From a virus, in IMG/VR virus record IMGVR_UViG_3300023174_000067, positions 62,001 to 126,000 of that record: a stretch of 64,000 nt of DNA, one strand, 5' to 3'. Position 1 is the stretch's first letter, and each line of letters begins with the position of its first letter. The notes beneath the pieces were generated by a model. That model did not search any database. It had not been told where the DNA came from and worked only from the letters and a program-made list of their open reading frames with translations. Both the position numbers and the translations under genes were made by a program. Shown here in pieces: positions 9,701 to 52,712 of the stretch.

Positions 9701-10054
9701 GTCAACATTTGCGATTGTTTGAATAGACCATGATGGTCCCGCATCATACCCTGACAATCCAAGAACCCTTGTCATGAACATTTGGTTAGATTGTTGTAAA
9801 TATGCTTTAGCTATATATGCCGCTTCATATTTAGGTATTTGCGTGTTTATAAATTTTTCAGGAGTAGTTCCTCCAAAATAAGTTTGGAACTCATCATAAC
9901 TTGATATAAAAATAGGTTCGAATGCAGGTCCTCTTAATGCTTCACCTACAATACCTAAAGTTGTTACACCAACACTTTGAGTTACAAAGCTTAAATCTCT
10001 TTCTGACGTATACACCCCTGGGGATACGAAAACTTTACTGTTTGTTGCCATCAT
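6713..10054 (-). CDS. tail sheath protein, T4 gp18-like, with Thr-rich insert
   Basis: The N-terminus (KVFVSPGVYTSERDLSF, then GIVGEALRGPAFEP) and the C-terminus (QLVGKIYIKPTRALEFIDIE) match contractile sheath proteins, which shorten to drive the tube through the envelope. At 1113 residues it is far longer than T4 gp18 (659), because of a large insert after about residue 115. That insert includes a Cys-bearing region (residues 128-157) and a poly-Thr tract at 290-323. The conserved C-terminal sheath core lies in roughly residues 780-1113. The Thr-rich stretch resembles surface linkers in the fibre proteins and could carry O-glycans. Start: MM at 10054/10051, with a TATTTAT element 33 nt upstream. 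Confidence 0.88.
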   Translation of the reverse strand: MMATNSKVFVSPGVYTSERDLSFVTQSVGVTTLGIVGEALRGPAFEPIFISSYDEFQTYFGGTTPEKFINTQIPKYEAAYIAKAYLQQSNQMFMTRVLGLSGYDAGPSWSIQTIANVDPTTVGFNQVCTSTPNYETNTCDINCDIVELSFDVDFSGCSNQNGSISFLTNFPDDIQSLLDVAYTEFNGGSSTIRTEINNQLLGIFSNPTSQLTSISYFGTVSEEDYVLLSPIFTGETNVYNVSNVCYSLADFSAPQNDPWYYNQFSNCLVDAYSGFSFWTIVSNMTMLPKTTTTTTSTTTTTTQSNPCVTTSTTSPYTTTTTTQPDCFSGTVHGKIYYYTGTSYTNYNNMVIATLRSRGISTFNATHDGPKYEVSELSATTLDFSGTYSAVLKNPFSTFAVNVTNDDGKSFVFKTSFSISDSTYLPKVFGVDNFGKPRADVPLFVEERFDSLLQWAYNKGYIRGLRQDLVRLDSARSQQTDNIACYLEKYQSPETPWLVSELRGTKVYRLFKVISIADGNSANSQIKISMINMSFDNQTFDVIVRDFYDTDDAPVVLEKFTNCSMDLNQNNFVAKKIGSSDGEFALKSKFIMVEMNEDAPKDALPCGFEGYPFRKYDGVRSPFPVYKTRYNYPGEVVYNPPFGYSNGTDNPTTTSGDNVRRTYLGLSNSVDSEYDLDFFQYVGKQNVGTTLNPILQPWDFLTKGFHMDSGATIISISDNWSSSGRTAFAVGAANFSSEPDKQTNPYYRLYARKFTVFVAGGFDGWDIYREYRTNGDRFVLGQSGYLAGAAPDDRYPNATGSGLFRQIAIGDNNVDWANTDYYAYLLGQQTFSNPESVNINVFVTPGIDYVNNSNLAESAIEMIEYNRADSLYIVTTPDFNMFVPTTTSQFDLIYPTDAVNNLFETGIDSNYTATYYPWVLTRDTVNNTQIYIPATAEVTRNLALTDNIAFPWFASAGYTRGLVSAIKARKKLTQEDRDTLYVGRINPIATFSDVGTVIWGNKTLQIRESALDRINVRRLLLQARKLISAVSVRLLFEQNDEKVRQDFLNAVNPILDAIRRDRGLYDFRVTVSSSPEDLDRNQLVGKIYIKPTRALEFIDIEFLITPTGASFDNI

Positions 10055-14530: not shown

Positions 14531-15643
14531 ATGTCAATAATCTCAGAACCACAAAGAACAAAATTATATAATAGAGTTAAACACTTACTTGGGGCTCCAT
14601 TAAGAAGTGTTGAACTTGATGATGAAATGCTGGATTCTTTATTAGAATTAGCAATCGGTGACTACTCTCAATATATACAAGATTGGTTAATTGAGTCTCA
14701 ATGGTCCGCATTACAAAATTTAAATTTAGACGAACAATCATTAACAAGAGCATTTATAACTAGAAGTTTAGATTATGAAACAAGATATAGTTATGCTTAT
14801 TCAAAAATTGTGGGACTTCAAACAGGTGGTGATTGGGTATTAAAAAAAGATTACATTGTTTTACAACAAAAACAACAATTATACGAAATTCCTGCAGGAA
14901 GAGAAATTAATGAACTTTTATGGTACACCCCACCAACATTGAATAATGTGTTATTTGACCCGTGGGCTTTTGGAGCTATGGGTGGGCCAGGACTTGGAGG
15001 TACGGGTGGATTTGCTCAATTAGGTTATTCAGGTTCTTACACCATGATGCCAGCATTTGATATGTTATTGAGAATGCAAGAAACTAACATCCAAAGAAGA
15101 ATAATTGGTGGCGACTTAACTTATAGAATAACGGCTTTACCTGATGGTAAAAAAATGATTCATTTAATGAACACACCTGGTGGTAAATGGGATTTTGGAA
15201 ATGCATCATTTCATAACGGAAAAGTTTGGTATTGGTATTATGATGTTGACGGTGCAGATAGAGACGACTGTTTAAGAAAGAATCCAGATATAGTTAAATT
15301 ACCTTCTGATGTTCCAATTGATGAAATATCTTGGGATGAGTTAAATAATCCCGCACAACAATGGGTTAGAAGATGGTTTATCGGTCTTTGTAAAGAAACT
15401 TTAGGTAGGGTTAGAGGTAAATATAGTGGTAATCTTAAAACACCAGATAGTGAGTTAACTATGGATTATACAAGTTTATTAACTGAGGGTAAAGATGAAA
15501 GAGATAAACTTAAAGAAGAATTGATGGCAAGACTTGAAAGAATGAGACCTGAAAAAATGATGGAAAAAGAAGCTTTGACCGCCGAAAATTTAAACAAGGC
15601 AATGAAGTTTAGAGCATTCCCTCGTCAAATATATGTAATATAA
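14531..15643 (+). CDS. neck/head-completion protein, T4 gp13-like
   Basis: The protein has 370 residues (T4 gp13 has 309). The N-terminus has the hallmark helical region LYNRVKHLLGAPLRSVEL, followed by DEMLDSLLELAIGDYSQYIQ and DWLIESQW, as in T4-like neck proteins that sit on the portal. A Gly/Met-rich loop lies at about 155-180. The rest is beta-rich with several Trp-Tyr motifs (WYWYYDVDGAD). The C-terminal part (about 300-360) is a charged helix. It is the only clear head-tail joining gene on the plus strand here, while its partner neck genes are on the minus strand across the helicase and SOD genes. Confidence 0.7.
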   Translation: MSIISEPQRTKLYNRVKHLLGAPLRSVELDDEMLDSLLELAIGDYSQYIQDWLIESQWSALQNLNLDEQSLTRAFITRSLDYETRYSYAYSKIVGLQTGGDWVLKKDYIVLQQKQQLYEIPAGREINELLWYTPPTLNNVLFDPWAFGAMGGPGLGGTGGFAQLGYSGSYTMMPAFDMLLRMQETNIQRRIIGGDLTYRITALPDGKKMIHLMNTPGGKWDFGNASFHNGKVWYWYYDVDGADRDDCLRKNPDIVKLPSDVPIDEISWDELNNPAQQWVRRWFIGLCKETLGRVRGKYSGNLKTPDSELTMDYTSLLTEGKDERDKLKEELMARLERMRPEKMMEKEALTAENLNKAMKFRAFPRQIYVI

Positions 15644-19722: not shown

Positions 19723-20358
19723 TTATTTTTGAAAGTATTTCTCAATTCTTTTACTTAATCTAACTCTTGGGTCATTTATTGTTCTACCAACATCTTCATA
19801 TTTTAACACAAACCCAAAACTTAAAAAAACTCTTCTTGAATTAAATTCATTTGTCCAATGTTTATATAGAGATGCTTCAAACCCATATAAATCGGATTCT
19901 TGTATTTTAACCGACTCTTTATCCACATAAAAATCATAATCTTCTGACAATACACTGATGTTACATTTATAATTAACATATCCATCTATTGATGCGTCAT
20001 AATGGGGATTTATTTTTCCTCCTTTATTCATATCAACAGCTTGAAGAAAAACATTATCTTTTGGAAAATTAAATTCTTCTGAGATTCTATCTATTATGTT
20101 AAAAATAAAAGAGGGCAAACCCTCTTTTGATACATCAGATATTGATTGGAATTTTGTAATATAATTTGTTAAAGGTGTATTTGAAATATCAAACATACAA
20201 GATTTACCCTTTAATACTTTGGATAATTCTGTGAGATGGTAATTACTATCATCACCCGTATGATTAACAGAATCTAACCAATTTATTATTTGGTTTGCCT
20301 CATCTTGTGTGATGAAATTTTTTTTTATCTTACAAGTTTCCAAATCCGTATTTACCAA
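19723..20358 (-). CDS. 2-oxoglutarate/Fe(II)-dependent oxygenase-like protein
   Basis: The protein has 211 residues. The double-stranded beta-helix signature is visible: INPHYDAS gives His119 and Asp121 (HxD iron ligands), YKHWTNEF gives His167 as the third ligand, and NSRRVFLSFGFV gives an Arg (175 or 176) to hold 2-oxoglutarate. Such enzymes hydroxylate protein or small-molecule substrates. The spacing H...N...RRVxLSF suggests a protein or peptide hydroxylase type, but the subfamily cannot be fixed by eye. It lies among fibre genes and in the same strand block as a GT60-type transferase, so hydroxylation of Pro-rich fibre proteins is an attractive but unproven role. A stable hairpin is embedded in its coding sequence (20107-20128). 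Confidence 0.7.
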   Translation of the reverse strand: MVNTDLETCKIKKNFITQDEANQIINWLDSVNHTGDDSNYHLTELSKVLKGKSCMFDISNTPLTNYITKFQSISDVSKEGLPSFIFNIIDRISEEFNFPKDNVFLQAVDMNKGGKINPHYDASIDGYVNYKCNISVLSEDYDFYVDKESVKIQESDLYGFEASLYKHWTNEFNSRRVFLSFGFVLKYEDVGRTINDPRVRLSKRIEKYFQK

Positions 20359-20614: not shown

Positions 20615-21691
20615 TTAATCGATTGGTAAACCCGATAAATAATCGCCAGTTATATCATACCATTGGTCATTCCATACATATTTCATAACTTTATCAACAA
20701 CAACATAAGACTCATATTGTGTTGTACCCGTACTAACATCGCTATTAATAAAAATACCACTTAAAAAATATACATCATTTTCTGTATTTGCGGTTGTTGC
20801 AGCTGGTAAATTTGCAATAATATAATCATACGCAGAATCCCTAATAGTTTCTGTGGCAAATATCATTTGTTTATTATAGATTTCTTCAGAAGTACCTGTA
20901 AAACCTGTTAAGGTTGATTTATACGGCCATAAAATATCAGTTAATTTCCAAAAAGAATAATTTTCATTATCAAATGGTGGATTACTTTGACTCGGCGCTT
21001 CAGTTAATACATTCGCAACTTGGTTAATCGCACCCCATACTGCACCACAAGTATTATCTGTTGTGCTATCAGATTTACCTCTTCTTAACATTCTACCTGA
21101 ACGACCATCTTCAGTAACACCAATGTGTGGCATACTTGTCACAAATAAAGTTCCACCAAGTGTTGTTGCTACGTGACTTGCAAAAGCTCCAAAACCAACA
21201 CTACCAACAAATGGATATCCTGCTAAACCACCCGATTGAAATGGTCCTAAAAATGAATTAATACTATTTGGCCAACCACCAATATTTGCTTGTACTTTTG
21301 GTGCATCAACATCATCAGAACAAATACCTTGAGCATAAACAATATCCGTTGATGGTATACCTTCATTTGTAATATACTCCGTTGTATATGTTCCCCACAC
21401 TTCAGATAATACCGCACCTGAGAATGGTTGAGCACCTCCGTCAACGGTAATATTTCTTACAGTTTCAGTATATGCAGTTTGTCCTGTTAATGGCGTTGGG
21501 ACGGTTATTTCATATGTTTTATCATATTCCACGACAGTTAATTCATAAGTACCGTATGGATAATCACTAATATTGTTAAATGGTATTGTTTGTACCCCTA
21601 AATCAATTGTACCTCCTGTTGAGGGTGAAAAAGTCACATCGGCAGTTTTACCCGATAAATTTGTGCTTGTTATTCTAATTCCTTGTATCAT
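20615..21691 (-). CDS. virion-type protein with LCIB-like beta-carbonic anhydrase domain
   Basis: Residues 1-85 form a small beta-rich domain as in neighbouring fibre proteins. Residues about 95-345 resemble the LCIB/C family (limiting-CO2-inducible beta-carbonic anhydrases). The visible matches are GICSDDVD (Cys124, Asp126), GPFQSGGLAGYPFVGSVGFG, AFASHV (His173), SMPHIGVTEDGRSGRMLRRG and NTCGAVWGAI (Cys215). Cys, His and Cys are the expected zinc ligands. The Arg that normally pairs with the Asp after the first Cys is not where I expect it (sequence DAPK), so activity is uncertain. LCIB proteins interconvert CO2 and bicarbonate. A copy in a fibre operon could be enzymatic, a binding fold, or a repurposed scaffold. 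Confidence 0.6.
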   Translation of the reverse strand: MIQGIRITSTNLSGKTADVTFSPSTGGTIDLGVQTIPFNNISDYPYGTYELTVVEYDKTYEITVPTPLTGQTAYTETVRNITVDGGAQPFSGAVLSEVWGTYTTEYITNEGIPSTDIVYAQGICSDDVDAPKVQANIGGWPNSINSFLGPFQSGGLAGYPFVGSVGFGAFASHVATTLGGTLFVTSMPHIGVTEDGRSGRMLRRGKSDSTTDNTCGAVWGAINQVANVLTEAPSQSNPPFDNENYSFWKLTDILWPYKSTLTGFTGTSEEIYNKQMIFATETIRDSAYDYIIANLPAATTANTENDVYFLSGIFINSDVSTGTTQYESYVVVDKVMKYVWNDQWYDITGDYLSGLPID

Positions 21692-21716: not shown

Positions 21717-23864
21717 TTATAATACTAATCCAAAATTTAAATCATTTTCTGGTATCTCTAACGCATTTAAGAAAAAACAAGGTGATTCGGTTAATGTTTC
21801 TATTGTTAGAACATCAGATTCATCATAATATGATAATCTATTATCACCATTTTTATTTTTGAATACATTAACTGTTGTGATATCATATAACATGCCCGTA
21901 CTTAAACAAACACCACTAACCGCTGTATTAACAATGTTCCATTGAAAATAATTATCAATTGTGTTATCTATAAAATTATCAGGGATGGAGTTGTTATAGA
22001 AATATTCACCAATAGTATTGTTATAAAAATTATTACCTATGATATTACCTTGTGGTGATGAACCGCCGTAACCAAAATTTTCACCTATTATATTGTTACT
22101 AAAATTAAAACCGATATTGTTAGAGGAAAAATTTTCACCAATAGTATTGTTATTAAACCCTGCCGTACATAAGTTACTAAACACACCGCCCAAAAAGTCA
22201 TTATCAAAGGTATATGAACCAAATTTATTATTATATGTCCCTCCTGAAAATTGATTACCACCTATAAAAGAACCAATATCATTTAATTCAAATTCACCCA
22301 ACATTAAATTTCCTTTAAATTCATTACCGATTGTGTTATCACGAAAAGAATTTAAAATGGTGTTATTTTCAAAAATATTATTAATTATGTTTCCCCTAAA
22401 ATTATATGTCCCAATAGTTAAATTAGTTCCAATAGTATTATTATAAAAATTGAATCCAATATTATTTTCGTAGAAATATGAATATATTGTATTACCATTA
22501 TACCCATTCCCAATTAAATTACGATAAAATTCGGAATAACTTTCATTGTAATTATATCCATTACCAATATCATTATTATAGAAGTCATCATAAATTTTAT
22601 TGTTATTAAACTGATTTCCTATTTCATTATTTTGAAAATTACCAGAATTCCAAACATTATCCCTAAAGTCATTTCCAATATTGTTTCTGTAAAAAGACCC
22701 CCCAATTAAAATGTTATTGTAAAAATCACTACCAATTCTATTATTGTTGAAATTGGCCGTGATATAATTGTTATTAAAATAATCCCCAATTATATTCCCG
22801 TCAAAATCATCATTTGTTGAGTTGTTATAAAAACTATCACCTATTTGATTACTATCACAATCATCATTAAATGTATTATTATAAGAACCGTTACCGATGG
22901 TGTTATTTATATATTCGCCAGATATAAACACATTATTTGCCAATAAAAAATCACCAACACCCCAATTCAAATATAAATTGGCTTGGTTCCCAACATAGTT
23001 ATTTATTGCAGTTTCATTATCAATAGCATCACCAAATGTTGTGTATTCATAAACTTGGTTTCTTATGTTAGGTTGATAATAACTCATAATACCATCGTCA
23101 GATGCAGAATAATAAAGCGAATCAGTAGTTACACTTAATGTTTCACCTGATATAATCATTAAAGAATCACTCACAACAGATATCACATCAAAAAATGAAG
23201 GATTTGAATTTTGTACTGAAACAACTGACCCGATTGAAAAATCTGAGGTAAATGTTGTTCCTGTGTTACCGTATAATACTCCTGTACTACCTGTTAAACC
23301 ACTTATCCCAACAAGACCACTTAATGGGTTATTTTCGTAATATGAATAACCACGATATCTTTTAAATAAAATAGTTCTGTGGTCATAGTCCGTCCTGTTA
23401 TTTAAATTATCAATTCTTTCAGTAATTCTACCAAATGCAGGTCCTTGTGTTTTTTCAGTCGTACTAAATGTCCAATCATATTTTATTTTATCAAAAGGAA
23501 ATTCAGGTTGGAATGCATCTATAGATATTGTATTTGCAGATGTTGCAAAAACAACAATAGGAGATACAGTATCGGCACTTTTATATATTTCAATATTAAT
23601 TGAATTTTTTTGATTATCATAATCTGGTTGGTCATAACAAGTTCTAAAATCTGTTATGATATAATACGCACCTACATTTAATGTTTCGCCAGTTATATTG
23701 TCTACAAGTTCTGAATATGTTGTCTCTATAACTCCACCACCATTTCCTGTAATGGATGAAAAGTCAATATGATATGAAGCACCGTTTAATTCTACTGGTA
23801 TTAAAGTATCTGGTGTTGGTACTTCCAGATAAGTTAATTGTCCTATGGTTTTTCCTGTTAACAT
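21717..23864 (-). CDS. Asn-ladder beta-solenoid fibre/spike protein
   Basis: Of 715 residues, about 300-640 consist of some thirty imperfect repeats of roughly 10-12 residues with the core NxIGxxFxNN (for example NTIGNGSYNN, NNIGNDFRDN, NTIGEYFYNN). Regular Ile and Phe inside and Asn at fixed turns are typical of a beta-solenoid with Asn ladders. Residues 1-300 form the N-terminal part, beginning MLTGKTIGQLTYLEVPTPDT, with the TDFRTCYDQPDYDN strand near 70. The last ~60 residues may be a cap or trimerisation element. It should be a rod-like fibre or receptor-binding spike. A TATTTAT element is 18 nt upstream. No enzymatic motif was seen. Confidence 0.8.
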   Translation of the reverse strand: MLTGKTIGQLTYLEVPTPDTLIPVELNGASYHIDFSSITGNGGGVIETTYSELVDNITGETLNVGAYYIITDFRTCYDQPDYDNQKNSINIEIYKSADTVSPIVVFATSANTISIDAFQPEFPFDKIKYDWTFSTTEKTQGPAFGRITERIDNLNNRTDYDHRTILFKRYRGYSYYENNPLSGLVGISGLTGSTGVLYGNTGTTFTSDFSIGSVVSVQNSNPSFFDVISVVSDSLMIISGETLSVTTDSLYYSASDDGIMSYYQPNIRNQVYEYTTFGDAIDNETAINNYVGNQANLYLNWGVGDFLLANNVFISGEYINNTIGNGSYNNTFNDDCDSNQIGDSFYNNSTNDDFDGNIIGDYFNNNYITANFNNNRIGSDFYNNILIGGSFYRNNIGNDFRDNVWNSGNFQNNEIGNQFNNNKIYDDFYNNDIGNGYNYNESYSEFYRNLIGNGYNGNTIYSYFYENNIGFNFYNNTIGTNLTIGTYNFRGNIINNIFENNTILNSFRDNTIGNEFKGNLMLGEFELNDIGSFIGGNQFSGGTYNNKFGSYTFDNDFLGGVFSNLCTAGFNNNTIGENFSSNNIGFNFSNNIIGENFGYGGSSPQGNIIGNNFYNNTIGEYFYNNSIPDNFIDNTIDNYFQWNIVNTAVSGVCLSTGMLYDITTVNVFKNKNGDNRLSYYDESDVLTIETLTESPCFFLNALEIPENDLNFGLVL

Positions 23865-23882
23865 CGTTTTTCTATTTTATTT

Positions 23883-23889
23883 ATAAATA
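23883..23889 (-). promoter_or_regulatory. TATTTAT element before solenoid fibre gene
   Basis: GATATTTATAAATAA on the minus strand, 18 nt before the ATG at 23864. Confidence 0.42.
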
Positions 23890-25540: not shown

Positions 25541-27223
25541 TTACGACTCTTTTCTTAAATTACCATCATAAAATTCAAAACGATTATGTTCTGTTGGGGT
25601 TAACAATAATAATCCAGGATTCAATTCTCCTTTTCGAGTGTTTTGGAACATATAAGACATCCAAGTTTGTTCAAACGGTTTATCCCATTTTTCCGTTAAA
25701 AACATTTTTTTGTTACCACTTTTACTAACTACCTGAGGCCAATTAGAATAATATACATCACCATCTATATAACCCAAACCATTATGTATTTTAATATTTT
25801 TAAAAATTGTTTTTGGAGAATCGGGGTCCGTTCCCTTTAAGGGTAAATTAGTTTTTTCAGGAAAATGAGAATTCCTAACATGTTGAGGGACGTTATACCA
25901 AGACCATTGAGTACTATTATCACCAAAAAATTCGGTAAAAGACAACTTTAAAAAATCAAATTTTTCTTTACCAATAATTGATAATGATTTTTGATATAAA
26001 TTAGAAACATATCTGTTAAATCCATTTTTACAAACCTCACCTTTTTTTGGATAAAAAAACATATCGTCCTCAAAAAAGAAATAAAAATCAAACTCATTTT
26101 CATTCGCATGTTCCGATATAAATTGTCTACCTCCACAAATACCAAGATTATCTTTTTTAATGTGAGTAAACCCATGTTTTTCACATAGTTCCAAATATTT
26201 TTCTGTTGTTGATAAATCAGAAGAATTATCTAACAAAAACTTTTTTGGTTTATTAATAAAGTCTGAATCATATTCTAACATTGATTTAATTAATGTTTCA
26301 AACTGATTTGGACTATTAAATGTTATAACATATAGTGCGGTATTTTCAGGATTTAAAAAAGAATCATCGTTTTTTATTTTTTCAGTTTCATAGTTCTTTA
26401 ATTCTTCAAAAAATGGCCAAACTAATCCATTACCACTAATATCAAACTTATGTATTAAATTAGGATGTCTGTGAGTTAATATAGTAAAAAGACATTCATC
26501 CGCACCCATATACCCATCCCTCAATGTTGTCTCCATTACTGAATAATATAAATTATTCAACTCATGTACTTTATTTTTTGAACCACCAAAAAATCCTCCT
26601 CTACAAACGTAATTGACAAAATCGGTATTACAATAACGAGACATTGCGGTTCTTTCAAACCCATGAATTTCATCATTTGCATCATATGGATATGCTAAAT
26701 GAATAAACTTACCTTCATTTTTAATTACAAAATTATTTAAATTATCTAAGACTAAATCTTTTTGAAAATATCCTTTATTTACAGTATTTGTTAACCCACC
26801 GTCAATCCAAAAGAAATATTCAGAATTAAATGGATTTACAATTGCAGAATCATTTAACATAAACATTTTGGTAAACATCATCGGATTATAATATTTTAGT
26901 GATGCTTGAGGGGATTCTTTTAACCAATCCGCAAATGAATACCATTTTTCATCAGTTCTGATTTCTTGAATTCTATCAAAAAAAGGATTCCATGTTTCAA
27001 AATCGGTAACTTCTTTTATAAAAATTTTTGTCGGTTTATTTTCTCTAATTCTTATAACATCTTCTTCCAATTCTTTTGGTATCCAAACACACATTTGAGC
27101 ATCGGTTTCTAACATTTCAAAAAACCGTTCTTTATAATAATTAAAGTCTCTTTTAGCCCACCCATTTAGGTATCCTCTTCCCATGTCCCAAAGACCAGTT
27201 ACGATTGTAATATTTTTATTCAT
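25541..27223 (-). CDS. two-domain glycosyltransferase (HtrL/YibB-like plus GT2-like)
   Basis: Residues 1-285 begin NITIVTGLWDMGRGYLNGW and include FFWIDGGLTN and VCRGGFFGGSKN. This is the pattern of HtrL/YibB-type putative glycosyltransferases. Residues about 300-560 form a second GT-A fold: ALYVITFNSPNQFETLIKSM, LDNSSD, then FFFEDDMFFYP with acidic residues where the DxD metal site is expected. Two catalytic domains in one chain suggest sequential sugar addition. It overlaps the next gene upstream (ATG of this gene at 27223, stop of that gene at 27216) by 8 nt, so they are coupled. Cytoplasmic, no membrane segment. Confidence 0.72.
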   Translation of the reverse strand: MNKNITIVTGLWDMGRGYLNGWAKRDFNYYKERFFEMLETDAQMCVWIPKELEEDVIRIRENKPTKIFIKEVTDFETWNPFFDRIQEIRTDEKWYSFADWLKESPQASLKYYNPMMFTKMFMLNDSAIVNPFNSEYFFWIDGGLTNTVNKGYFQKDLVLDNLNNFVIKNEGKFIHLAYPYDANDEIHGFERTAMSRYCNTDFVNYVCRGGFFGGSKNKVHELNNLYYSVMETTLRDGYMGADECLFTILTHRHPNLIHKFDISGNGLVWPFFEELKNYETEKIKNDDSFLNPENTALYVITFNSPNQFETLIKSMLEYDSDFINKPKKFLLDNSSDLSTTEKYLELCEKHGFTHIKKDNLGICGGRQFISEHANENEFDFYFFFEDDMFFYPKKGEVCKNGFNRYVSNLYQKSLSIIGKEKFDFLKLSFTEFFGDNSTQWSWYNVPQHVRNSHFPEKTNLPLKGTDPDSPKTIFKNIKIHNGLGYIDGDVYYSNWPQVVSKSGNKKMFLTEKWDKPFEQTWMSYMFQNTRKGELNPGLLLLTPTEHNRFEFYDGNLRKES

Positions 27224-28001
27224 ATTTTTTTACTAATTTCTTTAATAGATTAATATCTTTTTTTGTATTATGTAATATTTTTACATTATTTGTATTTAAA
27301 TAATCCTCTTCATTTTTTGAAAAATCACCTAAAAAAGATTCAACACCATTTGTAAATGTTTCATTACTTGATAAAATTTTGTAGTTAACATTATTCTCAT
27401 AAGCATATTTTGTAATAAACAACTCATCAGGAAATTTACAATAAAATCCAAATTCAGGCATTACTGTATGTGGATATAATTTATCGTGATATTCTTGTGA
27501 TAATTTATATAAATTCATAATATGATTATATCTACCCCCAAAAAAATTACCCATAGTCCAAATTGCGCCTTCAGGATAATTAACATCAATAAAGTTTGTC
27601 ATACTTGGGTATGTATCTTTAAATAATGCGTTATAAAAATGTCTCATAAACACATATTCTGAGTCTAAAATATCTTTGTCCGTTATTTCACTAACAATTA
27701 TTTGGTCAGCATCTGCAACAAATATATAATCATATTCTTCTACTAAATGTTTCAGACACAATACTTTCATAAAAAGTAAGTGTTGATACTCATTTGGATG
27801 GTGGTCCACAACAATATGTTTCACAAAATCTAAATCATGTTTACGTTCATTATTAGTTATTAAAACAAAATGAACGTCATGATTAGGTAAGAAATTTTTC
27901 TTAGCCGATTTAAAAAAAGCTTCTGATGTATCATAATAATCATTTATTAGTTGAAAATTTTTATCGGGAAAAAACAAAGAGTTAATTAATGCAATTTTCA
28001 T
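27216..28001 (-). CDS. glycosyltransferase, GT6-like
   Basis: The protein has 261 residues. KIALINSLFFP is followed by YIFVADADQIIV (DxD at about 96-98) and IWTMGNFFGGRYNHIM. KFPDELFITKYAY and YKILSSNETF complete a pattern that fits family GT6 (the ABO blood-group and alpha-galactosyltransferase family): DxD, then GxxFGG, then a DE-containing helix. GT6 enzymes transfer Gal or GalNAc to an existing galactoside with retention. Bacterial and a few phage members lack the N-terminal membrane anchor, as here. Probably extends a glycan begun by another enzyme of this block. Confidence 0.65.
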   Translation of the reverse strand: MKIALINSLFFPDKNFQLINDYYDTSEAFFKSAKKNFLPNHDVHFVLITNNERKHDLDFVKHIVVDHHPNEYQHLLFMKVLCLKHLVEEYDYIFVADADQIIVSEITDKDILDSEYVFMRHFYNALFKDTYPSMTNFIDVNYPEGAIWTMGNFFGGRYNHIMNLYKLSQEYHDKLYPHTVMPEFGFYCKFPDELFITKYAYENNVNYKILSSNETFTNGVESFLGDFSKNEEDYLNTNNVKILHNTKKDINLLKKLVKKYE

Positions 28002-28007
28002 TATATT

Positions 28008-28973
28008 TTAAAATTTAAAATTTATAGTATGTCCTTCGGTGATACCCAATTCAAGTGTTTTATTTTCATCATCAATAGGGTGAAGTGTAACAATTAAAGA
28101 TTTTTTTTGTCCGTATATTGGGTCACCACCCATGGTTTCATTATTAACATTAAATGATAAAGACAATCCATTTTTATCGTCTACTAACTTTCTTACAATA
28201 TCGGTAACATCTGAAACTACGTTTAGTGGGGTTGTACTGTAACCCTCATCAATTTCGAAAGGGGGAGTTCCATAAACAGCATTTTTTACTATTATTTTTT
28301 TTCCCTTGTATATATCAAATTTACCTTTATAAAAATCAGGATGAAGATTAGTTAGGAAAGGATTAAATTCCATATGATAAAATTCGTAGTTTGTAGATTG
28401 TGGATTATCTCTATTTAACCAAGCTTCATAATCCCATCTACCCCAAATTCCTACATCAGAACATTTTTTAATGTGTTTAGATTGAGACCACCAAAAATTA
28501 CCCCAATACCATCCACCATTACAACTAACACCAACATTGTCATATTCATTAAGTTTCTCAACACATTCTCTCCAATTATCAATTAAAAAATATTCCATAC
28601 ATTCTCTCCAAGATGTCACATTTTCTATTTTTTTATGAGAAGGTTCTTTTGAGTTAAATGTTGTCCAATTATTACTAACACCTTTTGTGTGAAAATAAAA
28701 TATCTTAGCATCATCATATTTTTCACCAATCTCTTTTACTTTTTTTATACCAGGATATTCCGCATGATTTTGTTCGTGAAATTCTAGTCTAATCTTAGAG
28801 TAATCATTTAAATAATTTTTAACCTCTTCTCTATCAACATTTGATAAATTAATTGTTAACCATATCTCATCTGAATTATCATATAACCCAGAATTAACCA
28901 TTCTATCTAACTGTTTTTTAATTAAGTCTTTCCATTGACCTACTAAATATGCGTGATACACTACTACTATCAT
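28008..28973 (-). CDS. putative glycosyltransferase with C-terminal beta domain
   Basis: The N-terminal ~215 residues (IVVVYHAYLVGQWKDLI, KIFYFHTKGVSNNW, SWRECMEYFLIDNW) have the look of a GT-A-like family in which FHTKG and the Trp-rich GVSCNGGWYWGNFWW are conserved. I could not find a clean DxD. From about residue 225 (KIIVKNAVYGTPPFEIDEG) a beta domain follows with DVTDIVRKLV, NNETMGGDPIYGQKKSL; this resembles the DUF3395 fold found at the C-terminus of some DnaJ-like proteins. Gaps to both neighbours are under 10 nt. Sugar specificity unknown. Confidence 0.55.
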   Translation of the reverse strand: MIVVVYHAYLVGQWKDLIKKQLDRMVNSGLYDNSDEIWLTINLSNVDREEVKNYLNDYSKIRLEFHEQNHAEYPGIKKVKEIGEKYDDAKIFYFHTKGVSNNWTTFNSKEPSHKKIENVTSWRECMEYFLIDNWRECVEKLNEYDNVGVSCNGGWYWGNFWWSQSKHIKKCSDVGIWGRWDYEAWLNRDNPQSTNYEFYHMEFNPFLTNLHPDFYKGKFDIYKGKKIIVKNAVYGTPPFEIDEGYSTTPLNVVSDVTDIVRKLVDDKNGLSLSFNVNNETMGGDPIYGQKKSLIVTLHPIDDENKTLELGITEGHTINFKF

Positions 28974-28977
28974 AATA

Positions 28978-31458
28978 TTAATTTTTTTTTCTTATAACAC
29001 TGGTTACACTCCAATCAGGACTACTTTGATATATTTGAATGCTTTCAATATTTTCATTTAAGTATTCCATCTCTTCTTGGGTCATGTAGTCCGAGTAAAT
29101 TTTACCTGTTTTAATAAAATCTTGTAACATTGTTAATGTTATTGTTTTTTCTCGGTCACCCCAATTAGTCCAATGGTTTGGTTTATTCATCAACTCTATT
29201 GAAGTATGAAGGTCTTCTAAAACGTATATACCTCCTGGTTTAACACTTTTAAATAATTTTGCTAAAGTAATTTGTTGGTCTCTCATTATATGAGAACCGT
29301 CATCCATAATGACATCAACAGATGGGTATTGATTACTTAATTTAATTAAATCCTCTTCTTTTGATTGGTCTCCGTCAATAAACGTCATTCGGTGTCTTGG
29401 GGTATCTCCTAATTTGTCTAAACTATAGGGTAGGTTATATTCAACACCAACAATTTCCGCATTTATAAAATAATCTCTCCATAGTTTTATTGATTCGCAA
29501 TCGTATATACCTATTTCCATGAAAATTTTACATTCTTCGCGAATTGGTTTAAAAAGGTCGTTATATATTAATTCAAAATATCTGTGACCATGGTGTTTAT
29601 CCGTTGCATAATATTGTACAATATCTAATAATTGTTCACCTTTAGGTATTGGAATATTAAATAAATTATAATATGCCATATCGATAGTTCTATTTAATAG
29701 ATTTCCATAAGAAAAGGCGTGAAAAATAAAATTTTTATTTACGGTATCTTTAAAATATCTACCGTTTAAAACTTTATTATCAATTACTTTTATTTTATCA
29801 CTAACACCAATTTCATTTTTTAATAAGTGAGAAAAACAAGTTTGGTCGTGCCATAAACCATTTTCATAAAATCCTTTTTGTAATGGACTACCTCCTTCTA
29901 ATTCATCACACACATCATACCATCTTTGTAAAAACCATCTAACCCATTCTGTGTTTTTTATTAGTATGACGCCAGCATTCATTGCACTTGGACCATAATC
30001 TTCAGTCACAACAATATCTTTTCCTTCAATAATAAAATCTTCAATATGATAAGAATTATCAACAACAATTGCATCGGCATCTAAGAATAATACATAATCA
30101 GGAGAATGGGTATTTAACACATCAAGAAGAAGATGTGGTTTATACCAAGTAAATGCCCTTCTACCTATTTTTTCTCTAATTTTATTACCATCGTTCTCAA
30201 CATGATAAATGTAGTTTTTTTCATTACAATATTTTTCATTTATTGATTTGGTATATTTTGAATATGAAACATTATCGGTCCAAAATTGTGATAACACTAT
30301 TTTTTTATTATCATTCATTTGTTTTTTTTCTATTTTAACTTCTTGATTATTTTTTTTTGTTGTTTTAATAAAAAACCCATTTTCAGTTTTAACATATTCA
30401 TTTTGTAAATCAAAATAATTTGTTTCATTGATTATTGTCAAATAATCAAAAATTTCTGATTGGAGTTCATTCTTATCTTTATAAAAAAAGTAAATAAACC
30501 CACCATCATTAACACTATCGATATATTTGATAAATGCATTTTTTTCATGTGTTTTATTGAAATCAAATTTTGTATTGTAAAAAACTAATTCGTTTATTGA
30601 ATTTTTGGCAAATGGACATTCAGCCGTAACAGCATAGTGATTTCTGGCAACAGTACCATAATGCTCCCAATTAAACATATCTTTATCCATAGAATAAAAA
30701 ATCGGGGTTCTCACAAAATCGCTATCCCAAGTATTAACTATTAATGGAGTTCCATAGTCTAATGGATAGTTTAATATCACCTTCCTTTTTATAGGATTAT
30801 TATCATAATAATAAGAGATAATATCATCAACAAAGTATTGTCTTTTACCGTTAGTATAGTGAATAGAAAAATAATCTTCACTAACTATATATTGATGACA
30901 TAATAAATTAGATGTTTTTCTTTTGTACGGATGTTTGTCAAAAAATTTCCAAAGAGTAACATCTTCAATAAAAATATTTTCGACATTAACATCGTTAATT
31001 AAATCTTCACAAACTTTTTTTGACATGAAGACACCAGCACCTCCTCCATGAGAATGTACGACATCATATCCATTTATTTCTTCTATCATTTTATCAAGAG
31101 CGAATGAGTTAATATAAGAACCATCATCAGTTCTAAAAATATAATCAAATTCTTTATTTTTTAGACACCAATCTACCGCCTCTTTTAATCTTTCATACAT
31201 TAATGAGCCAATACCTTCATCTTTTAATGAATGATAATCATAACTTTCATTAGATATTAAATGGAGTATTTTATTTTTTTCATCATAACTTTGAGTATCG
31301 TTATTACCGTCAAAAAATATAACTTCATGACCCATTTTTTCTATTCTTGGCACCCAAGTCTCCATACAAGACATTTTACGAGTTAAGTCAGCTCTATCAA
31401 TTCTTATTCCGTGCCCATCATATTTGTGTGAGGTAAACCCCAAAAAAAGTATTTTCAT
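28978..31458 (-). CDS. three-domain glycosyltransferase/methyltransferase
   Basis: An 826-residue multidomain enzyme. Residues 1-215 hold a GT31-like domain (YIFRTDDGSYINSFALDKM). Residues about 380-600 hold a second GT-A domain with VLFLDADAIVVD and NAGVILIKNTEWVRWFLQRW, as in GT34/GT8-type transferases, and a HDQTCFSHLL helix. From about 610 a class I SAM methyltransferase follows: IFMEIGIYDCES (motif I), IDGDQSKEEDL, VDVIMDDGSHIMRDQQ (motif II region) and GGIYVLEDLH, close to cephalosporin/macrocin-type O-methyltransferases. It could add two sugars and then cap one by O-methylation. It sits in the middle of the transferase run with 4-15 nt gaps. Confidence 0.72.
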   Translation of the reverse strand: MKILFLGFTSHKYDGHGIRIDRADLTRKMSCMETWVPRIEKMGHEVIFFDGNNDTQSYDEKNKILHLISNESYDYHSLKDEGIGSLMYERLKEAVDWCLKNKEFDYIFRTDDGSYINSFALDKMIEEINGYDVVHSHGGGAGVFMSKKVCEDLINDVNVENIFIEDVTLWKFFDKHPYKRKTSNLLCHQYIVSEDYFSIHYTNGKRQYFVDDIISYYYDNNPIKRKVILNYPLDYGTPLIVNTWDSDFVRTPIFYSMDKDMFNWEHYGTVARNHYAVTAECPFAKNSINELVFYNTKFDFNKTHEKNAFIKYIDSVNDGGFIYFFYKDKNELQSEIFDYLTIINETNYFDLQNEYVKTENGFFIKTTKKNNQEVKIEKKQMNDNKKIVLSQFWTDNVSYSKYTKSINEKYCNEKNYIYHVENDGNKIREKIGRRAFTWYKPHLLLDVLNTHSPDYVLFLDADAIVVDNSYHIEDFIIEGKDIVVTEDYGPSAMNAGVILIKNTEWVRWFLQRWYDVCDELEGGSPLQKGFYENGLWHDQTCFSHLLKNEIGVSDKIKVIDNKVLNGRYFKDTVNKNFIFHAFSYGNLLNRTIDMAYYNLFNIPIPKGEQLLDIVQYYATDKHHGHRYFELIYNDLFKPIREECKIFMEIGIYDCESIKLWRDYFINAEIVGVEYNLPYSLDKLGDTPRHRMTFIDGDQSKEEDLIKLSNQYPSVDVIMDDGSHIMRDQQITLAKLFKSVKPGGIYVLEDLHTSIELMNKPNHWTNWGDREKTITLTMLQDFIKTGKIYSDYMTQEEMEYLNENIESIQIYQSSPDWSVTSVIRKKN

Positions 31459-31473
31459 ATTTGTTGTGTTATT

Positions 31474-32727
31474 TTATAGATTACCTGTTATTCTTTCACA
31501 CCACCCTTTAGATTCAGAATGTGGCCATACCACCCAGTATGATGGTTTATGAGACGTTTGAAACTCTCTCCACACTTTACAATAACCATCAGGGTCTCTC
31601 ATCATCATTTCAATTTCATTTTTATCGGCATCTTTTCTGAATATTGTTTCATCATTACTGTCATGGAATGCAACTACCCAAAAATCATAATCTTTTTCAG
31701 GTACCTGAGTATATCCAATATCAATACAATGTTTGAAGATTTTTGCGAAACTTTTTCTCCATTCATCTTCATTTTCAAAATGATATGGATTTGGTGGATA
31801 TTGTTTATCTAATGTATATTGTTGTACTGACCTATCACTAAAAAGTAATCCACAATATTTTTCATAATCCATTAAAGTTCTTTCAGTACCAAACCCATAT
31901 ATTCCAAATTCTTTTGGGTCGTATGTTTCACCGTCCATACTAAATAATCTTCTATTTTTAGAATGTGCTCTTGAATTTTTTTCACCCCAAGTTTTATCAT
32001 CATCCCACTGCTTGGTTCTACCCTTACGAGTATATTCGTGCCAAATAACTGTTTTGTGAGGATGAAATAAATCATATCCATGTGTGTAGGCTCTTGCCGC
32101 AATTGATATTTCTTCCCCATGAAAATAAAATTCAGGGTCATGTTGAACTTCTTTAGAAAATTGACCAACAGTAAAACAAAAATGTGCGGAATAAAATCTT
32201 GATGGAATTGGTTCTTTTAAATCTTGCCAACCTGGTATAGTTTCAGGTAAAAAGAACACCGCTCCCTCGGGAATAAACCTATCAAACGACATTCTCCATG
32301 GGTCCCTAATTCTCATCATTGGGTCATTATCAGGGTCAAAAGAAGAAACATATCCAGTTAATAAAGGTTTTTTATATCCTTTCTTTTGTAGTTGTTTAAT
32401 CATATCGATTAAAGTCTTATCCCAATCTTTTTCAAATCTCATATGAGAATCAATTTGTAAGGTATATTCTTCTCCTTTATATAACTGTTGTGTTAAATTT
32501 CTAGCCCAACATACCCCGTTAGATTCGTTATATGGAATATTTAAAATACTAAATCTTTTATCTTTTTCATATTCAGATAAATTATCAAACCCATCCTCAG
32601 GATGGAATTGTCTTGCAATACCTAACCTTAAATTTTTTGGGTTTTTAGCATTTTCAATCATGCTTTGAATGGTGGGGATTAATTGTGGGTCACGATAGCT
32701 AGCAATTTGTACAAATATTCTATTCAT
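31474..32727 (-). CDS. GT60-type polypeptide N-acetylglucosaminyltransferase
   Basis: The protein has 417 residues, opening IFVQIASYRDPQLIPTIQSM. Then GVCWARNLTQQLYKGEEYTL is followed by QIDSHMRFEKDWD (DSH at 93-95 in place of DxD). Next come PEGAVFFLPETIPGW, HFCFTVGQFSKEV and GEEISIAARAYTHGYDLFHP, ending with an HEYTRKGR element. This order is that of the GlcNAc family (GT60), typified by the Dictyostelium Skp1 enzyme that puts alpha-GlcNAc on a hydroxyproline, with relatives acting on Thr/Ser mucin-like domains. It would therefore start an O-glycan on protein. It lies directly next to the first PT-repeat fibre gene (stop at 32794), a likely substrate. Confidence 0.78.
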   Translation of the reverse strand: MNRIFVQIASYRDPQLIPTIQSMIENAKNPKNLRLGIARQFHPEDGFDNLSEYEKDKRFSILNIPYNESNGVCWARNLTQQLYKGEEYTLQIDSHMRFEKDWDKTLIDMIKQLQKKGYKKPLLTGYVSSFDPDNDPMMRIRDPWRMSFDRFIPEGAVFFLPETIPGWQDLKEPIPSRFYSAHFCFTVGQFSKEVQHDPEFYFHGEEISIAARAYTHGYDLFHPHKTVIWHEYTRKGRTKQWDDDKTWGEKNSRAHSKNRRLFSMDGETYDPKEFGIYGFGTERTLMDYEKYCGLLFSDRSVQQYTLDKQYPPNPYHFENEDEWRKSFAKIFKHCIDIGYTQVPEKDYDFWVVAFHDSNDETIFRKDADKNEIEMMMRDPDGYCKVWREFQTSHKPSYWVVWPHSESKGWCERITGNL

Positions 32728-40658: not shown

Positions 40659-41873
40659 ATGTCAAAAATTAATGTATTAGTATTACCAAGTGATAAAACA
40701 GGTGTTGGTAAATTTCGCTCTGTTGACCCTCACATCTTTCTTCAAAACATGTATCCCGATGACTTTCATGTGGATATAGATTACTCTCCTAACATTCAGG
40801 ACCCAAATTATTGGAAAAAATATCAAATAGTTCATATTCATCGTAATATAGGACAAGATTATGATAACTGTCCAAAAATATTACAATGGTTAAAATCTAT
40901 GGGTATTATAACTGTTGTTGATATTGATGATTATTGGATGCCAACTAAAGAACATCCTATCTACGAAATCATTAGAACCGCTAAGTTAAATGAAAAAATA
41001 ACGGCAAATTTAAAAGCCGCGGAATATGTAACCACAACTACATCTATATTTGCGGATGAGATAAAAAATTTAAATAAGAATGTTGTTATCTTTCCAAACG
41101 CGATAAATCCAAATGAACCACAATTTAAAGAACCAACACTACCAAGTGATAAATTAAGAATTGGGTGGTTAGGAGGTTCTTCTCACTTACATGATTTGAT
41201 GTTGATGGAACAATCCATGTCAAAATTAAGTAATGAAAGAAATGATTTACAATTTGTATTATGTGGTTTTGATACTAGAGGTACAATTACTGAAATTAAT
41301 CAAGAAACAGGAGAACAAAAACAAAGAGCTATTAAACCCGAAGAAACTGTTTGGGTTAAATATGAACAAATTGTTACCGATGGTTATTATGGATTATCTG
41401 ATGATTATATAAAACATTTAAAAAAATATAAAGAAGAAGAATATAATAACGAAGAAAACGAATTATATCGTAGAGTTTGGACAAGACCTGTTACATCATA
41501 CGCTAAAAATTATTCAAAATTCGATGTATCTTTAGCCCCAATTAAAAATCATATCTTTAACAGAGTTAAATCTCAATTAAAAGTAATTGAGGCTGGTTTC
41601 TATAAGAAAGCAATAATTGCTTCAGATATTGGTCCATATACTATTGATTTAAATCATGCATTAAAAAATGGTAATTTTACTGATGGTAATGCATTATTGG
41701 TTGATGAAAATAGAAATCATAGTGATTGGTATAAATTTATAAAAAAATTAAACGATAATAGAAATTTTGCCGTAGATTTGGGTGAAAGATTATATGAAAC
41801 AGTTAAAGATAGATACGATTTAAATGTCGTTACTAAAGCTAGAGCAGAATGGTACAAATCACTTATAAAATAA
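40659..41873 (+). CDS. glycosyltransferase, GT-B fold (GT4-like)
   Basis: A 404-residue protein. The N-terminal lobe starts INVLVLPSDKTGVGKFRS and contains IVHIHRNIG and TVVDIDDYWMP. The C-terminal lobe has LRIGWLGGSSHLHDL, FDVSLAPIKNHIFNRVKSQLKVIEAG (the usual E-containing nucleotide-sugar loop), ASDIGPY and GNALLVDEN. This is the GT4 layout for retaining transferases using NDP-sugars. It opens the second sugar cluster of the plus strand. Acceptor unknown; may build virion glycans or a surface/nucleic-acid modification. Confidence 0.75.
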   Translation: MSKINVLVLPSDKTGVGKFRSVDPHIFLQNMYPDDFHVDIDYSPNIQDPNYWKKYQIVHIHRNIGQDYDNCPKILQWLKSMGIITVVDIDDYWMPTKEHPIYEIIRTAKLNEKITANLKAAEYVTTTTSIFADEIKNLNKNVVIFPNAINPNEPQFKEPTLPSDKLRIGWLGGSSHLHDLMLMEQSMSKLSNERNDLQFVLCGFDTRGTITEINQETGEQKQRAIKPEETVWVKYEQIVTDGYYGLSDDYIKHLKKYKEEEYNNEENELYRRVWTRPVTSYAKNYSKFDVSLAPIKNHIFNRVKSQLKVIEAGFYKKAIIASDIGPYTIDLNHALKNGNFTDGNALLVDENRNHSDWYKFIKKLNDNRNFAVDLGERLYETVKDRYDLNVVTKARAEWYKSLIK

Positions 41874-41877
41874 TTTT

Positions 41878-42582
41878 ATGATAAAAATACCCTTAACAAA
41901 AATTTTATTTTTGGATATTGAAACAGTTGGTGGTTGTAAAAACTACGAAGATTGTAAAAAAAACAATCCTAAAGTTGCTGACCAGTATATTAAATATATT
42001 GATTGGTTTCAGAAAAGATTTCCTGAAGACTCGGAATTATCTTTAGATGAGATTTTTGTTAGAAGGGCGGCACTAGTTCCTGAGTTTGCAAAAATAGTTT
42101 GTGTAAGCGTTGCATTTGTAACTGATAAAGAAGAAGTTAAAACACAAACATTCTCAGGTGACGATGAAAAACAATTACTTAAAGATTGTCAAAAATTATT
42201 AGATAGATGTGGAAAATTAGATTTCTTCTTATGTGGACATAATTTGAAAAATTTTGATATCCCAATGTTAGCAAAAAGAATGATTATCAATGGACTTATG
42301 CCACCGTCAATACTTCCAAGTTATGATACAAAGCCTTGGGAAATCAAAGCAATAGATACTAAAGAAATTTGGCAATACGGAGCATATACATCAATTGGTT
42401 CGTTAGATTTACTTTGTACTACAATGGATATTCCAACACCAAAAGACGGAGATGTAACTGGAGATAAGGTTCATCAAGCTTATTGGGAAGAAAATAAATT
42501 AAAAGAGATATCAGAATATTGTGAAAAAGATGTTCACGTACTAATTGATATTATTAAAAAATTAAAAAACTTAGAAATATGA
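41878..42582 (+). CDS. DEDD-family 3'-5' exonuclease
   Basis: 234 residues. KILFLDIETVGG (Asp13, Glu15) is Exo I. FFLCGHNLKNFDIPMLAKR supplies the second Asp, and SEYCEKDVHVLIDI gives the YxxxD form of Exo III. It matches the DnaQ/PolB-like exonuclease superfamily (DNA_pol_B_exo2 type) without a polymerase. It probably trims DNA or RNA ends in replication or repair. Its stop overlaps the dUTPase ATG by 4 nt (ATGA), so the two are coupled. Confidence 0.75.
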   Translation: MIKIPLTKILFLDIETVGGCKNYEDCKKNNPKVADQYIKYIDWFQKRFPEDSELSLDEIFVRRAALVPEFAKIVCVSVAFVTDKEEVKTQTFSGDDEKQLLKDCQKLLDRCGKLDFFLCGHNLKNFDIPMLAKRMIINGLMPPSILPSYDTKPWEIKAIDTKEIWQYGAYTSIGSLDLLCTTMDIPTPKDGDVTGDKVHQAYWEENKLKEISEYCEKDVHVLIDIIKKLKNLEI

Positions 42583-43172
42583 TGGATACAAATGACTTTG
42601 ACTATTTGTTAAATGATATGGAAGACGATATCAGTAACGAAAGATTAAAAGAGATGATGGAAAATTTAGGGGTTGATTTGGATGAAATGGAAAGAAAGTT
42701 CGCAGATTTTCACCCAAGAAGAGAATTAAGATATGAAAAAATATCTGAGGATGCTGTTGACCCTAAATACAATTATCCTTCAGATTCAGGGTTTGATTTA
42801 TACTCAACTCAAGATTTAGAAATAGGACCTTTTGGTAGAATTTTAGTCCCAACAGGATTAAAATTTGATATACCTGATGGTACTGAAATTCAAGTAAGAC
42901 CTAAAAGTGGTTTAGCAATTAAACAAGGATTAACCGTTTTAAATACACCTGGAACCGTAGATTCAGGATACAACGGAGAAGTACAGGTTATTGTTTTCAA
43001 TACTAATAATTATTCTGTAACAATACCAAAAGGTATGAAGGTAGCTCAGGCAGTTTTATGTCCCGTTGTTAACGGAGATTGGGTTGAACTAATAAACGTA
43101 AAATCTGTAGACGAAAAAGATAGAGGTGATAATGGATTTGGTTCTACAGGTATTTTTGATTTACTTAAATAA
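42579..43172 (+). CDS. dUTPase (dUTP diphosphatase)
   Basis: 197 residues. The five trimeric-dUTPase motifs are present: SGFDLYS (70-76), a PTGL strand, RPKSGLAIKQGLTV, GTVDSGYNGEVQV, and near the C-terminus DRGDNGFGSTG, the P-loop-like motif 5. The reaction is dUTP to dUMP plus pyrophosphate, which keeps uracil out of phage DNA and feeds thymidylate synthesis. The first ~60 residues are an extra acidic helical region not in standard dUTPases. ATG overlaps the exonuclease stop by 4 nt. Confidence 0.92.
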   Translation: MMDTNDFDYLLNDMEDDISNERLKEMMENLGVDLDEMERKFADFHPRRELRYEKISEDAVDPKYNYPSDSGFDLYSTQDLEIGPFGRILVPTGLKFDIPDGTEIQVRPKSGLAIKQGLTVLNTPGTVDSGYNGEVQVIVFNTNNYSVTIPKGMKVAQAVLCPVVNGDWVELINVKSVDEKDRGDNGFGSTGIFDLLK

Positions 43173-43175
43173 TTT

Positions 43176-43721
43176 ATGAAAAAAATTTTTATTGACGGTG
43201 GAGCCAGAGTTGGTGAAACTATCGAACTACTATTAAACCATAGAGAAGATTTAAAAGGTTGTGATGTTTATTTTTTCGAATGTAATGAGGCTCATCATGA
43301 AACATTATTAGATATAAAAGAAAATAATAAAGATTATAATTTTTTTGTTAGAACAGAAGCTCTGTGGGATAAAGAAGATATTATGGATTTTTATATCTCA
43401 GTTGACCAATGGGGGGACTTAGGATGTACTTTAGACCCAACAAAAAGAGAAAAATTAGATTTAGATAACCCTAAACAAGTAAAAACTATTAGATTTTCTG
43501 ATTTTTTAAATCAATTTTCAGATGATGACTATATTATAGTTAAATTAGACATTGAAGGTGCGGAATATAATGTTGTTAGTGATTTATTATCATCAGGTAC
43601 TATAAATAAAATAAATGAGATTTATATTGAATGGCACGATGGATTTTTTAATAAAAATTCAACTCAACTTAAACACGAATTATCTAAATTAGATATAATA
43701 GTTAATAATAATTGGATGTAA
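43176..43721 (+). CDS. FkbM-family methyltransferase
   Basis: 181 residues. KKIFIDGGARVGETIELLL is the SAM-binding motif I; YFFECNEAHHE is motif II; TIRFSDFLNQF and then YIIVKLDIEGAEYNVV are the FkbM hallmarks, with a C-terminal strand pair. FkbM enzymes O-methylate sugars and antibiotics. Between dUTPase and a run of transferases, it probably methylates a glycan unit. No N-terminal membrane anchor. Confidence 0.78.
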   Translation: MKKIFIDGGARVGETIELLLNHREDLKGCDVYFFECNEAHHETLLDIKENNKDYNFFVRTEALWDKEDIMDFYISVDQWGDLGCTLDPTKREKLDLDNPKQVKTIRFSDFLNQFSDDDYIIVKLDIEGAEYNVVSDLLSSGTINKINEIYIEWHDGFFNKNSTQLKHELSKLDIIVNNNWM

Positions 43722-43724
43722 CGT

Positions 43725-46094: not shown

Positions 46095-46097
46095 ATT

Positions 46098-46763: not shown

Positions 46764-46766
46764 AAA

Positions 46767-48825: not shown

Positions 48826-48829
48826 TAGT

Positions 48830-49567: not shown

Positions 49568-49573
49568 ATTTAA

Positions 49574-50014: not shown

Positions 50015-50025
50015 AAAATAAAAAT

Positions 50026-51364: not shown

Positions 51365-51366
51365 TA

Positions 51367-51645
51367 ATGATGTTAAAAATTATGGGAGAACACTATTTTC
51401 TCGATTTAGACAAAATAGACGACTATATACAAATTAAATCTGATATTCCTCCTACAGGGTCAACAATGGAATACAGTATAAGTGTTGTAAAATATGAAAC
51501 AATAAAATTAATGTTAGAAGTTTTAATGGGTGAAAATGAGGAAATTGATGATGCGTTGGGTTCCAAAGGAACAAATCAATTATCAATACCATTTAAACTA
51601 GCTTTTAACACATTAGTAAGCAAAAATTTAATAAAATCATACTAA
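51367..51645 (+). CDS. small unknown protein
   Basis: 92 residues with two ATGs in tandem at 51367 and 51370. Begins MMLKIMGEHYFLDLDKIDDY, with a TMEYSISVVKYETIKLMLEV core and an acidic loop (GENEEIDDALG). The strand-helix mix looks like a compact single domain. Sits between the HAD-like and GT4 genes with 2-4 nt gaps; likely co-translated. No family recognised. Confidence 0.55.
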   Translation: MMLKIMGEHYFLDLDKIDDYIQIKSDIPPTGSTMEYSISVVKYETIKLMLEVLMGENEEIDDALGSKGTNQLSIPFKLAFNTLVSKNLIKSY

Positions 51646-51649
51646 AATT

Positions 51650-52705: not shown

Positions 52706-52712
52706 TATTAAT

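Follow-up and report, generated by a model that had tools for sequence, protein, structure and literature searches.

A predicted LCIB-type carbonic anhydrase domain in putative virion proteins of large uncultured phages

The subject of this analysis is a gene for a 358-amino-acid protein in a 64,000-nucleotide stretch of viral DNA, here called the window, which covers positions 62,001 to 126,000 of the IMG/VR virus record IMGVR_UViG_3300023174_000067 (134,633 bases, with a single copy of the gene). Behind a short N-terminal module, the protein carries a domain of the LCIB/C family of carbonic anhydrases. On balance we lean towards reading it as a virion-attached and catalytically intact beta-carbonic anhydrase of the LCIB/theta type, where the location on the virion and the zinc binding are predicted and catalysis is deduced from conservation only. 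Judging from their sequences, several lineages of large uncultured phages carry an LCIB-type domain, with the predicted catalytic residues intact, in virion-like proteins. The coordinates of the features are collected in Table 1.

The first-pass annotation of the window had assigned the domain to the LCIB/C family from five sequence boxes, all of which are found where it placed them (ICSDD at residue 123, GGLAGYPF at 154, SHV at 172, PHIG at 188 and CGA at 215). The hidden Markov model search that it proposed bears this out. The Pfam model PF18599 (LCIB_C_CA) matches residues 103–332 with 108.8 bits, compared to a curated cut-off of 25 bits (E=3.3e-31). Among PDB sequences, the protein matches 6kfs (E=1e-14) and PtLCIB4 (5b5y, E=1e-10), and further PtLCIB4 mutants, 9vzj/9w05 and, weakly, LCIB; a profile including two of these PDB sequences also picks up LCIB (5e-11) and LCIC (9e-10). 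The Pfam and PDB matches together rule out a chance motif match. A canonical beta-carbonic anhydrase could likewise be discarded: no further carbonic anhydrase model of Pfam, PF00484 included, matches the protein up to an E-value of 10, and the sequence reads C124-S-D126-D-V128, with Val128 in place of the arginine of the canonical CxDxR motif.

The predicted fold leads to the same family. The AlphaFold2 model, a monomer built with 31 phage sequences, has a mean predicted local distance difference test score (pLDDT) of 77.8. A Foldseek search with this model returns only PtLCIB4 and 6kfs below an E-value of 0.001, and the VIA-align superposition on PtLCIB4 (5b5y_B) gives a Z score of 22.0 over 233 residues, with a root-mean-square deviation of 2.8. 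The corresponding Z scores are 22.0 for 6kfs, 17.4 for LCIB and 16.8 for LCIC, and 8–10 for the canonical beta-carbonic anhydrases, with which the core fold is shared. By structure alignment the LCIB domain extends over about residues 71–353. Residues 1–69, aligned separately, resemble immunoglobulin (Ig)-like domains with a middling Z score of ~6, and what had been described as a fibre-like domain ahead of LCIB is now predicted to be an Ig-like beta-sandwich, of a kind that also heads proteins with P/T-rich stalks.

We now turn our attention to the predicted active site. The viral-contig scans gave 35 loci, 67 loci and 80 of 104 loci, in overlapping sets, and the loci analysed yielded 89 phage LCIB proteins, 84 of them distinct and 78 with residues at all six sites considered here. 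In these 78 complete sequences, Cys124, Asp126, His173, His189, Arg203 and Cys215 are kept without exception at a lowest pairwise identity of 33%, which rules out a degenerate active site. The zinc ligands proposed in the first-pass annotation, Cys124, His173 and Cys215, are thus present and conserved, and a zinc site is predicted. Position 125 is Ser in 72 of the phage sequences and Ala in six; Ser125 of the window's protein is the residue found in wild-type PtLCIB4. In the PDB alignments, it is aligned with the Ser of the CSDE box that is changed in the PtLCIB4 mutant S47R, and His173 with the His of the GHIP box that is changed in the mutant H88A.

It had been argued earlier that no obvious arginine is available to pair with the aspartate, and that the domain may therefore be non-catalytic. 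This argument finds no support here: LCIB-type proteins do not carry an arginine at the CxDxR position anyway, as seen in the alignment rows of 6kfs and PtLCIB4. From its invariance and spacing, Arg203 is likely the equivalent of Arg194/193 of LCIB/LCIC, and we consider it the candidate arginine of the dyad.

The same residues are found in cellular relatives. A single scan across genomes of bacteria and archaea gave 56 loci, mostly of Bacteroidota, and those with a residue at the six sites all keep it (54/54, and 55/55 at position 173). A FastTree tree was built from 139 sequences, with the bacterial sequences of that scan and two PDB fragments on the cellular side. It groups all 84 phage sequences in a single clade (support 0.968, stem 1.46), apart from those of bacteria. 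The ratio of nonsynonymous to synonymous substitution rates (dN/dS) for residues 97–357 against close relatives is 0.13–0.24 in eight of nine pairs, which indicates purifying selection. The ninth pair (L055) has 0.58, a value skewed by compensating indels, which were ignored in the ungapped comparison. The LCIB protein exceeds the polymerase in conservation in 20 of 36 loci, and the head-tail adaptor in 21 of 33. It evolves thus about as fast as core genes, unlike a fast-changing receptor-binding tip. Among 27 records, each of the 22 chosen for LCIB holds either a single copy or a tandem pair, whereas LCIB is absent from the five chosen otherwise. A search with four LCIB proteins against 50,697 phage records gave no match and no isolate phage.

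The LCIB domain is a movable module across phages. Eight queries with the N-domain gave 89 relatives, and among the 80 retrieved, several of which are the same protein from several contigs, 21 carry LCIB and 59 do not. Several of the 59 have P/T-rich stalks, and in L309 the N-domain is joined to a Laminin_G_3 domain (E=6e-10). In the window's phage the N-domain is present once, on the LCIB protein. In other phages the LCIB domain is found behind different starts. For L102 and L103, the first ~59 amino acids of the LCIB protein are 83–85% identical to those that open another protein, encoded in L100 and from a neighbouring family; the remainder of this L100 protein has no significant similarity. 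L371, L378, L379 and L387 have other N-termini again, with LCIB located before head-tail adaptor-related genes (family c2), and in a crAss-like group the domain stands behind ~65 N-terminal amino acids.

Another type of carrier is a conserved protein into which the domain is inserted in frame. The C-terminal part of the 776-amino-acid protein of L092 has 202 relatives; among the 80 retrieved, the insertion is present in three loci and the protein is uninterrupted in 76, with both flanks and 4–9 residues in between, the last one (L130) being cut. The insert comprises 274 residues in L108 and L154, which belong to the contigs of L092 and L093, and L109, on the contig of L104, is a 5'-cut copy of the LCIB-bearing carrier. 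The window encodes an uninterrupted homologue of 501 amino acids. This family, with ~200 relatives on viral contigs, tolerates the 274-residue insertion. Searches of PDB and PHROG with the 501-amino-acid protein gave nothing convincing and no annotated relative, and its neighbours had no phage match. The gene at 56776–58380 resembles a gp5-type hub by eye only, and no such claim is made here.

The neighbourhoods of the gene point towards the virion. The window has sheath, tube, baseplate hub and head-tail adaptor genes, and a T4-type major head protein is encoded in its flank, which makes this a T4-type phage with a contractile tail. In both L100 and L102, the gene lies between the head-tail adaptor and the sheath, tube and hub genes. 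In L371 it comes after the major head protein (phrog_138) and before the adaptor family, and in L378 it has the same place, after a major head protein of the same family as in L371 (c39). In L368 it is flanked by the major head protein and further virion genes, and in the crAss-like group it stands beside the capsid and other virion genes. The closest capsids to those of the latter group are from a Leptolyngbya phage (28% identity) and from crAss and Cellulophaga phages; the annotated genes around the Leptolyngbya phage capsid gave no clue to LCIB. The link to the virion rests thus on these head, neck and tail gene surroundings, and on the N-domain common to P/T-stalk and LamG proteins, the in-frame carrier insertion and the L102/L103 fusion.

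A further point counted for the virion is a late-promoter-like motif, TATTTATAAATA, upstream of the LCIB gene and the gene directly preceding it, two genes that are probably co-transcribed. The word TATTTAT occurs upstream of 18 of the window's 55 genes, tail genes included, compared to 2.3% of random 60-nucleotide stretches, and is likely, from this enrichment, a late promoter element. We take the motif to resemble the T4 late promoter TATAAATA. The preceding gene encodes an Asn-rich protein of 715 amino acids with short repeats (NNxIG/NxF-like units) that looks like a solenoid fibre; it has no Pfam or PHROG match.

Table 1. Features of the window and related loci (coordinates are window positions unless a locus is named)
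Feature	Coordinates	Strand	Basis
Gene of the LCIB-domain protein	20615..21691	minus	ATG-start open reading frame, 358 amino acids; PF18599 match E=3.3e-31
N-terminal Ig-like module, residues 1-69	21485..21691	minus	AlphaFold2 model, VIA-align Z ~6 to Ig-like domains; common to non-LCIB proteins
LCIB/C carbonic anhydrase domain, about residues 97-355	20627..21403	minus	Pfam residues 103-332; VIA-align Z 22 to PtLCIB4 (model residues 72-352)
Cys124, predicted zinc ligand	21320..21322	minus	78/78 complete sequences
Asp126, predicted catalytic Asp of Asp-Arg dyad	21314..21316	minus	78/78
His173, predicted zinc ligand, aligned with PtLCIB4 H88	21173..21175	minus	78/78; H88A mutant alignment
His189 of PHIG box, conserved	21125..21127	minus	84/84
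Arg203 of RRG box, candidate dyad arginine	21083..21085	minus	84/84 phage; 54/54 bacterial with a residue there
Cys215, predicted zinc ligand	21047..21049	minus	84/84
715-amino-acid Asn-rich repeat protein directly upstream of LCIB, 25-nucleotide gap	21717..23864	minus	open reading frame
TATTTATAAATA, late-promoter-like motif	23878..23889	minus	TATTTAT enrichment
Tail tube	5243..5731	minus	phrog_4542 E=1.1e-25
Tail sheath	6713..10054	minus	phrog_23 E=2.3e-55
Head-tail adaptor	14531..15643	plus	phrog_211 E=1.2e-10
501-amino-acid protein, uninterrupted homologue of L092/L093 LCIB carrier	58411..59916	plus	57% identity to both flanks
Site of LCIB insert in L092/L093, about residues 113-122 of 501-amino-acid protein	58747..58776	plus	site comparison
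Tandem LCIB genes	L105 7668-9734; L107 7698-9753		

In the mechanism that we propose, the Ig-like N-domain would dock the protein to the particle, and the C-terminal domain would dimerise and bind zinc via Cys124, His173 and Cys215. The Asp126–Arg203 pair would run the reaction CO2 + H2O = HCO3- + H+. Since the domain appears to be carried on different docking parts across phages, as other exchangeable fibre modules are, its most likely place of action is outside the cell, on the surface of the host. There, the local CO2/HCO3-/pH state could be changed or read during attachment. The benefit to the phage is a guess; possible gains are acid or bicarbonate made available locally where the phage meets the cell, a means to sense a cell that respires or photosynthesises, or a stabilised particle. 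Of the sugar- or surface-binding use suggested in the first-pass annotation, the surface role is plausible, while sugar binding has no positive evidence. The combination of enzyme-like conservation and fibre-like module exchange makes a working enzyme on the virion the best account. As a tentative extension, at least three tailed-phage lineages may have turned a working carbonic anhydrase into a virion module that can be exchanged and that reads or reshapes the CO2/bicarbonate/pH microlayer during attachment.

It is important to point out that several observations weigh against a working enzyme on the virion. The AlphaFold2 model is weak at residues 127–134 and 150–158, near the predicted active site. 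The virion status of the 501-amino-acid carrier rests on its neighbourhood, because it has no annotated relative. Two LCIB genes in tandem are found on seven contigs (L105, L106, L107, L333, L348, L349 and L355), where by likeness to the LCIB/LCIC complex a hetero-oligomer is possible. The pairs of L105, L107, L348 and L355 are surrounded by replication-type and unannotated genes, L355 alone having a virion protein close by, and given these surroundings some LCIB members may be active inside the cell. Moreover, the algal LCIB and LCIC, although related, are reported to be inactive in vitro in the accessible part of PMC5876011, possibly owing to disordered His162/161 and Arg194/193. On this point the reviews disagree, as far as their accessible parts go: PMC5876011 has none of three homologues active, whereas in PMC9614477 both PtLCIB3 and PtLCIB4 appear constitutively active.

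Another option considered was that the protein is a virion adhesin, in which a zinc-bearing LCIB fold binds a receptor or glycan and hydrates no CO2. In its favour, LCIB stands where other proteins with this N-domain have adhesive modules, for example the Laminin_G_3 domain of L309. Vaccinia D8 offers a works-like comparison, as a carbonic anhydrase fold on a virus particle (the location in our case being read from genes), and belongs to another carbonic anhydrase fold class. According to the accessible part of PMC4256255, D8 is an adhesin that binds chondroitin sulfate; it is not a relative, and the present proteins are from phages and keep their active-site residues. Strict conservation of this kind favours chemistry over D8-like adhesion. 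Host pressure should make a binding surface vary, and a dead site should decay, whereas here the six residues are invariant and dN/dS is low, a pattern that suits an enzyme better than a decayed site reused as adhesin. We therefore consider the adhesin unlikely.

The protein could also be an auxiliary enzyme made late inside the cell, supplying bicarbonate or CO2 for biosynthesis or holding the pH, with the N-domains incidental. The tandem pairs among non-structural genes would agree with this, as would the bacterial relatives, which are stand-alone proteins of mostly ~231 amino acids. However, the carrier parts to which the domain is fused, or into which it is inserted, are of at least four unlike kinds, and it is found in neighbourhoods with head, neck and tail genes. 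A photosynthesis-linked cyanophage gene set was also rejected, as psbA and NblA are absent in 22/22 LCIB records, a weak argument because no record is known to be complete. An intracellular role is thus improbable in our judgement. Some relatives of beta-carbonic anhydrases use COS or CS2. A virion enzyme of LCIB fold with such a substrate instead of CO2 would suit the long stem between the phage clade and the bacterial sequences, but is very improbable, since the residue set is identical to that of PtLCIB4, which is called active in the accessible part of PMC9614477.

The clues to the host are few. For the capsid and sheath of this phage, the nearest matches come from an uncultured 484-kb phage and a Microcystis phage, and for the capsid also from Flavobacterium phages, all at ≤47% identity; the polymerase is nearest to Salinibacter phages (~24%). 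Shine-Dalgarno-like words are not enriched (1/55 genes, compared to ~6% of random positions). This scarcity is compatible with a Bacteroidota host, although the indication is weak at a G+C content of 29%.

Some further genes should be mentioned. Adjoining LCIB, at 19723–20358 on the minus strand, is a gene for a 211-amino-acid protein that by eye is like a 2-oxoglutarate/iron oxygenase; it has no Pfam match, and its family is present in 20 of 68 clustered sources. In one contig only (L095, 2963–9125), the LCIB gene comes right after two proteins resembling by eye NodU-type carbamoyltransferases, which need a substrate derived from bicarbonate. Many glycosyltransferase-like genes (HtrL_YibB, GT6-like, GT34-like, GlcNAc transferase) are found at 25541–32727 (minus strand) and 40659–53516 (plus strand).

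Finally, we compare the protein to known systems. With LCIB/LCIC and PtLCIB4 (PF18599, theta-carbonic anhydrases to some authors) it shares the family, the fold, the Cys-His-Cys set, the conserved Asp and, probably, the conserved Arg. Those proteins are plastid or cytosolic, from algae and bacteria, whereas the present ones are phage-encoded, combined with virion-type modules and form a separate clade, and the earlier remark that this is an unexpected location for the family is upheld. With modular phage fibre and adhesin proteins (P/T-rich stalks, LamG) it shares the N-terminal module, but it has an enzyme-fold C-terminal module and no stalk. Our literature search, which covered few subscription papers, found no report of LCIB in a phage or as part of a virion. 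Carbonic anhydrase has been described as an auxiliary gene in viral metagenomes and a giant virus, in the accessible parts of PMC3474794 and PMC13037468 not as part of the virion.

If the enzyme indeed works on the virion, a carbon-concentrating-mechanism enzyme family would have been put to use on a virus particle, and phage adsorption would come to involve the inorganic carbon or the pH found at the surface of the cell. Known virion enzymes mostly cut polymers, for example lysozymes, depolymerases and neuraminidases, and chemistry of another kind would be added to the virion by an intact hydratase of small molecules on a fibre. The 84 distinct phage sequences, a large new set for the LCIB family with a fully conserved active site, would also be useful for understanding the apparent lack of in vitro activity of the algal LCIB and LCIC.
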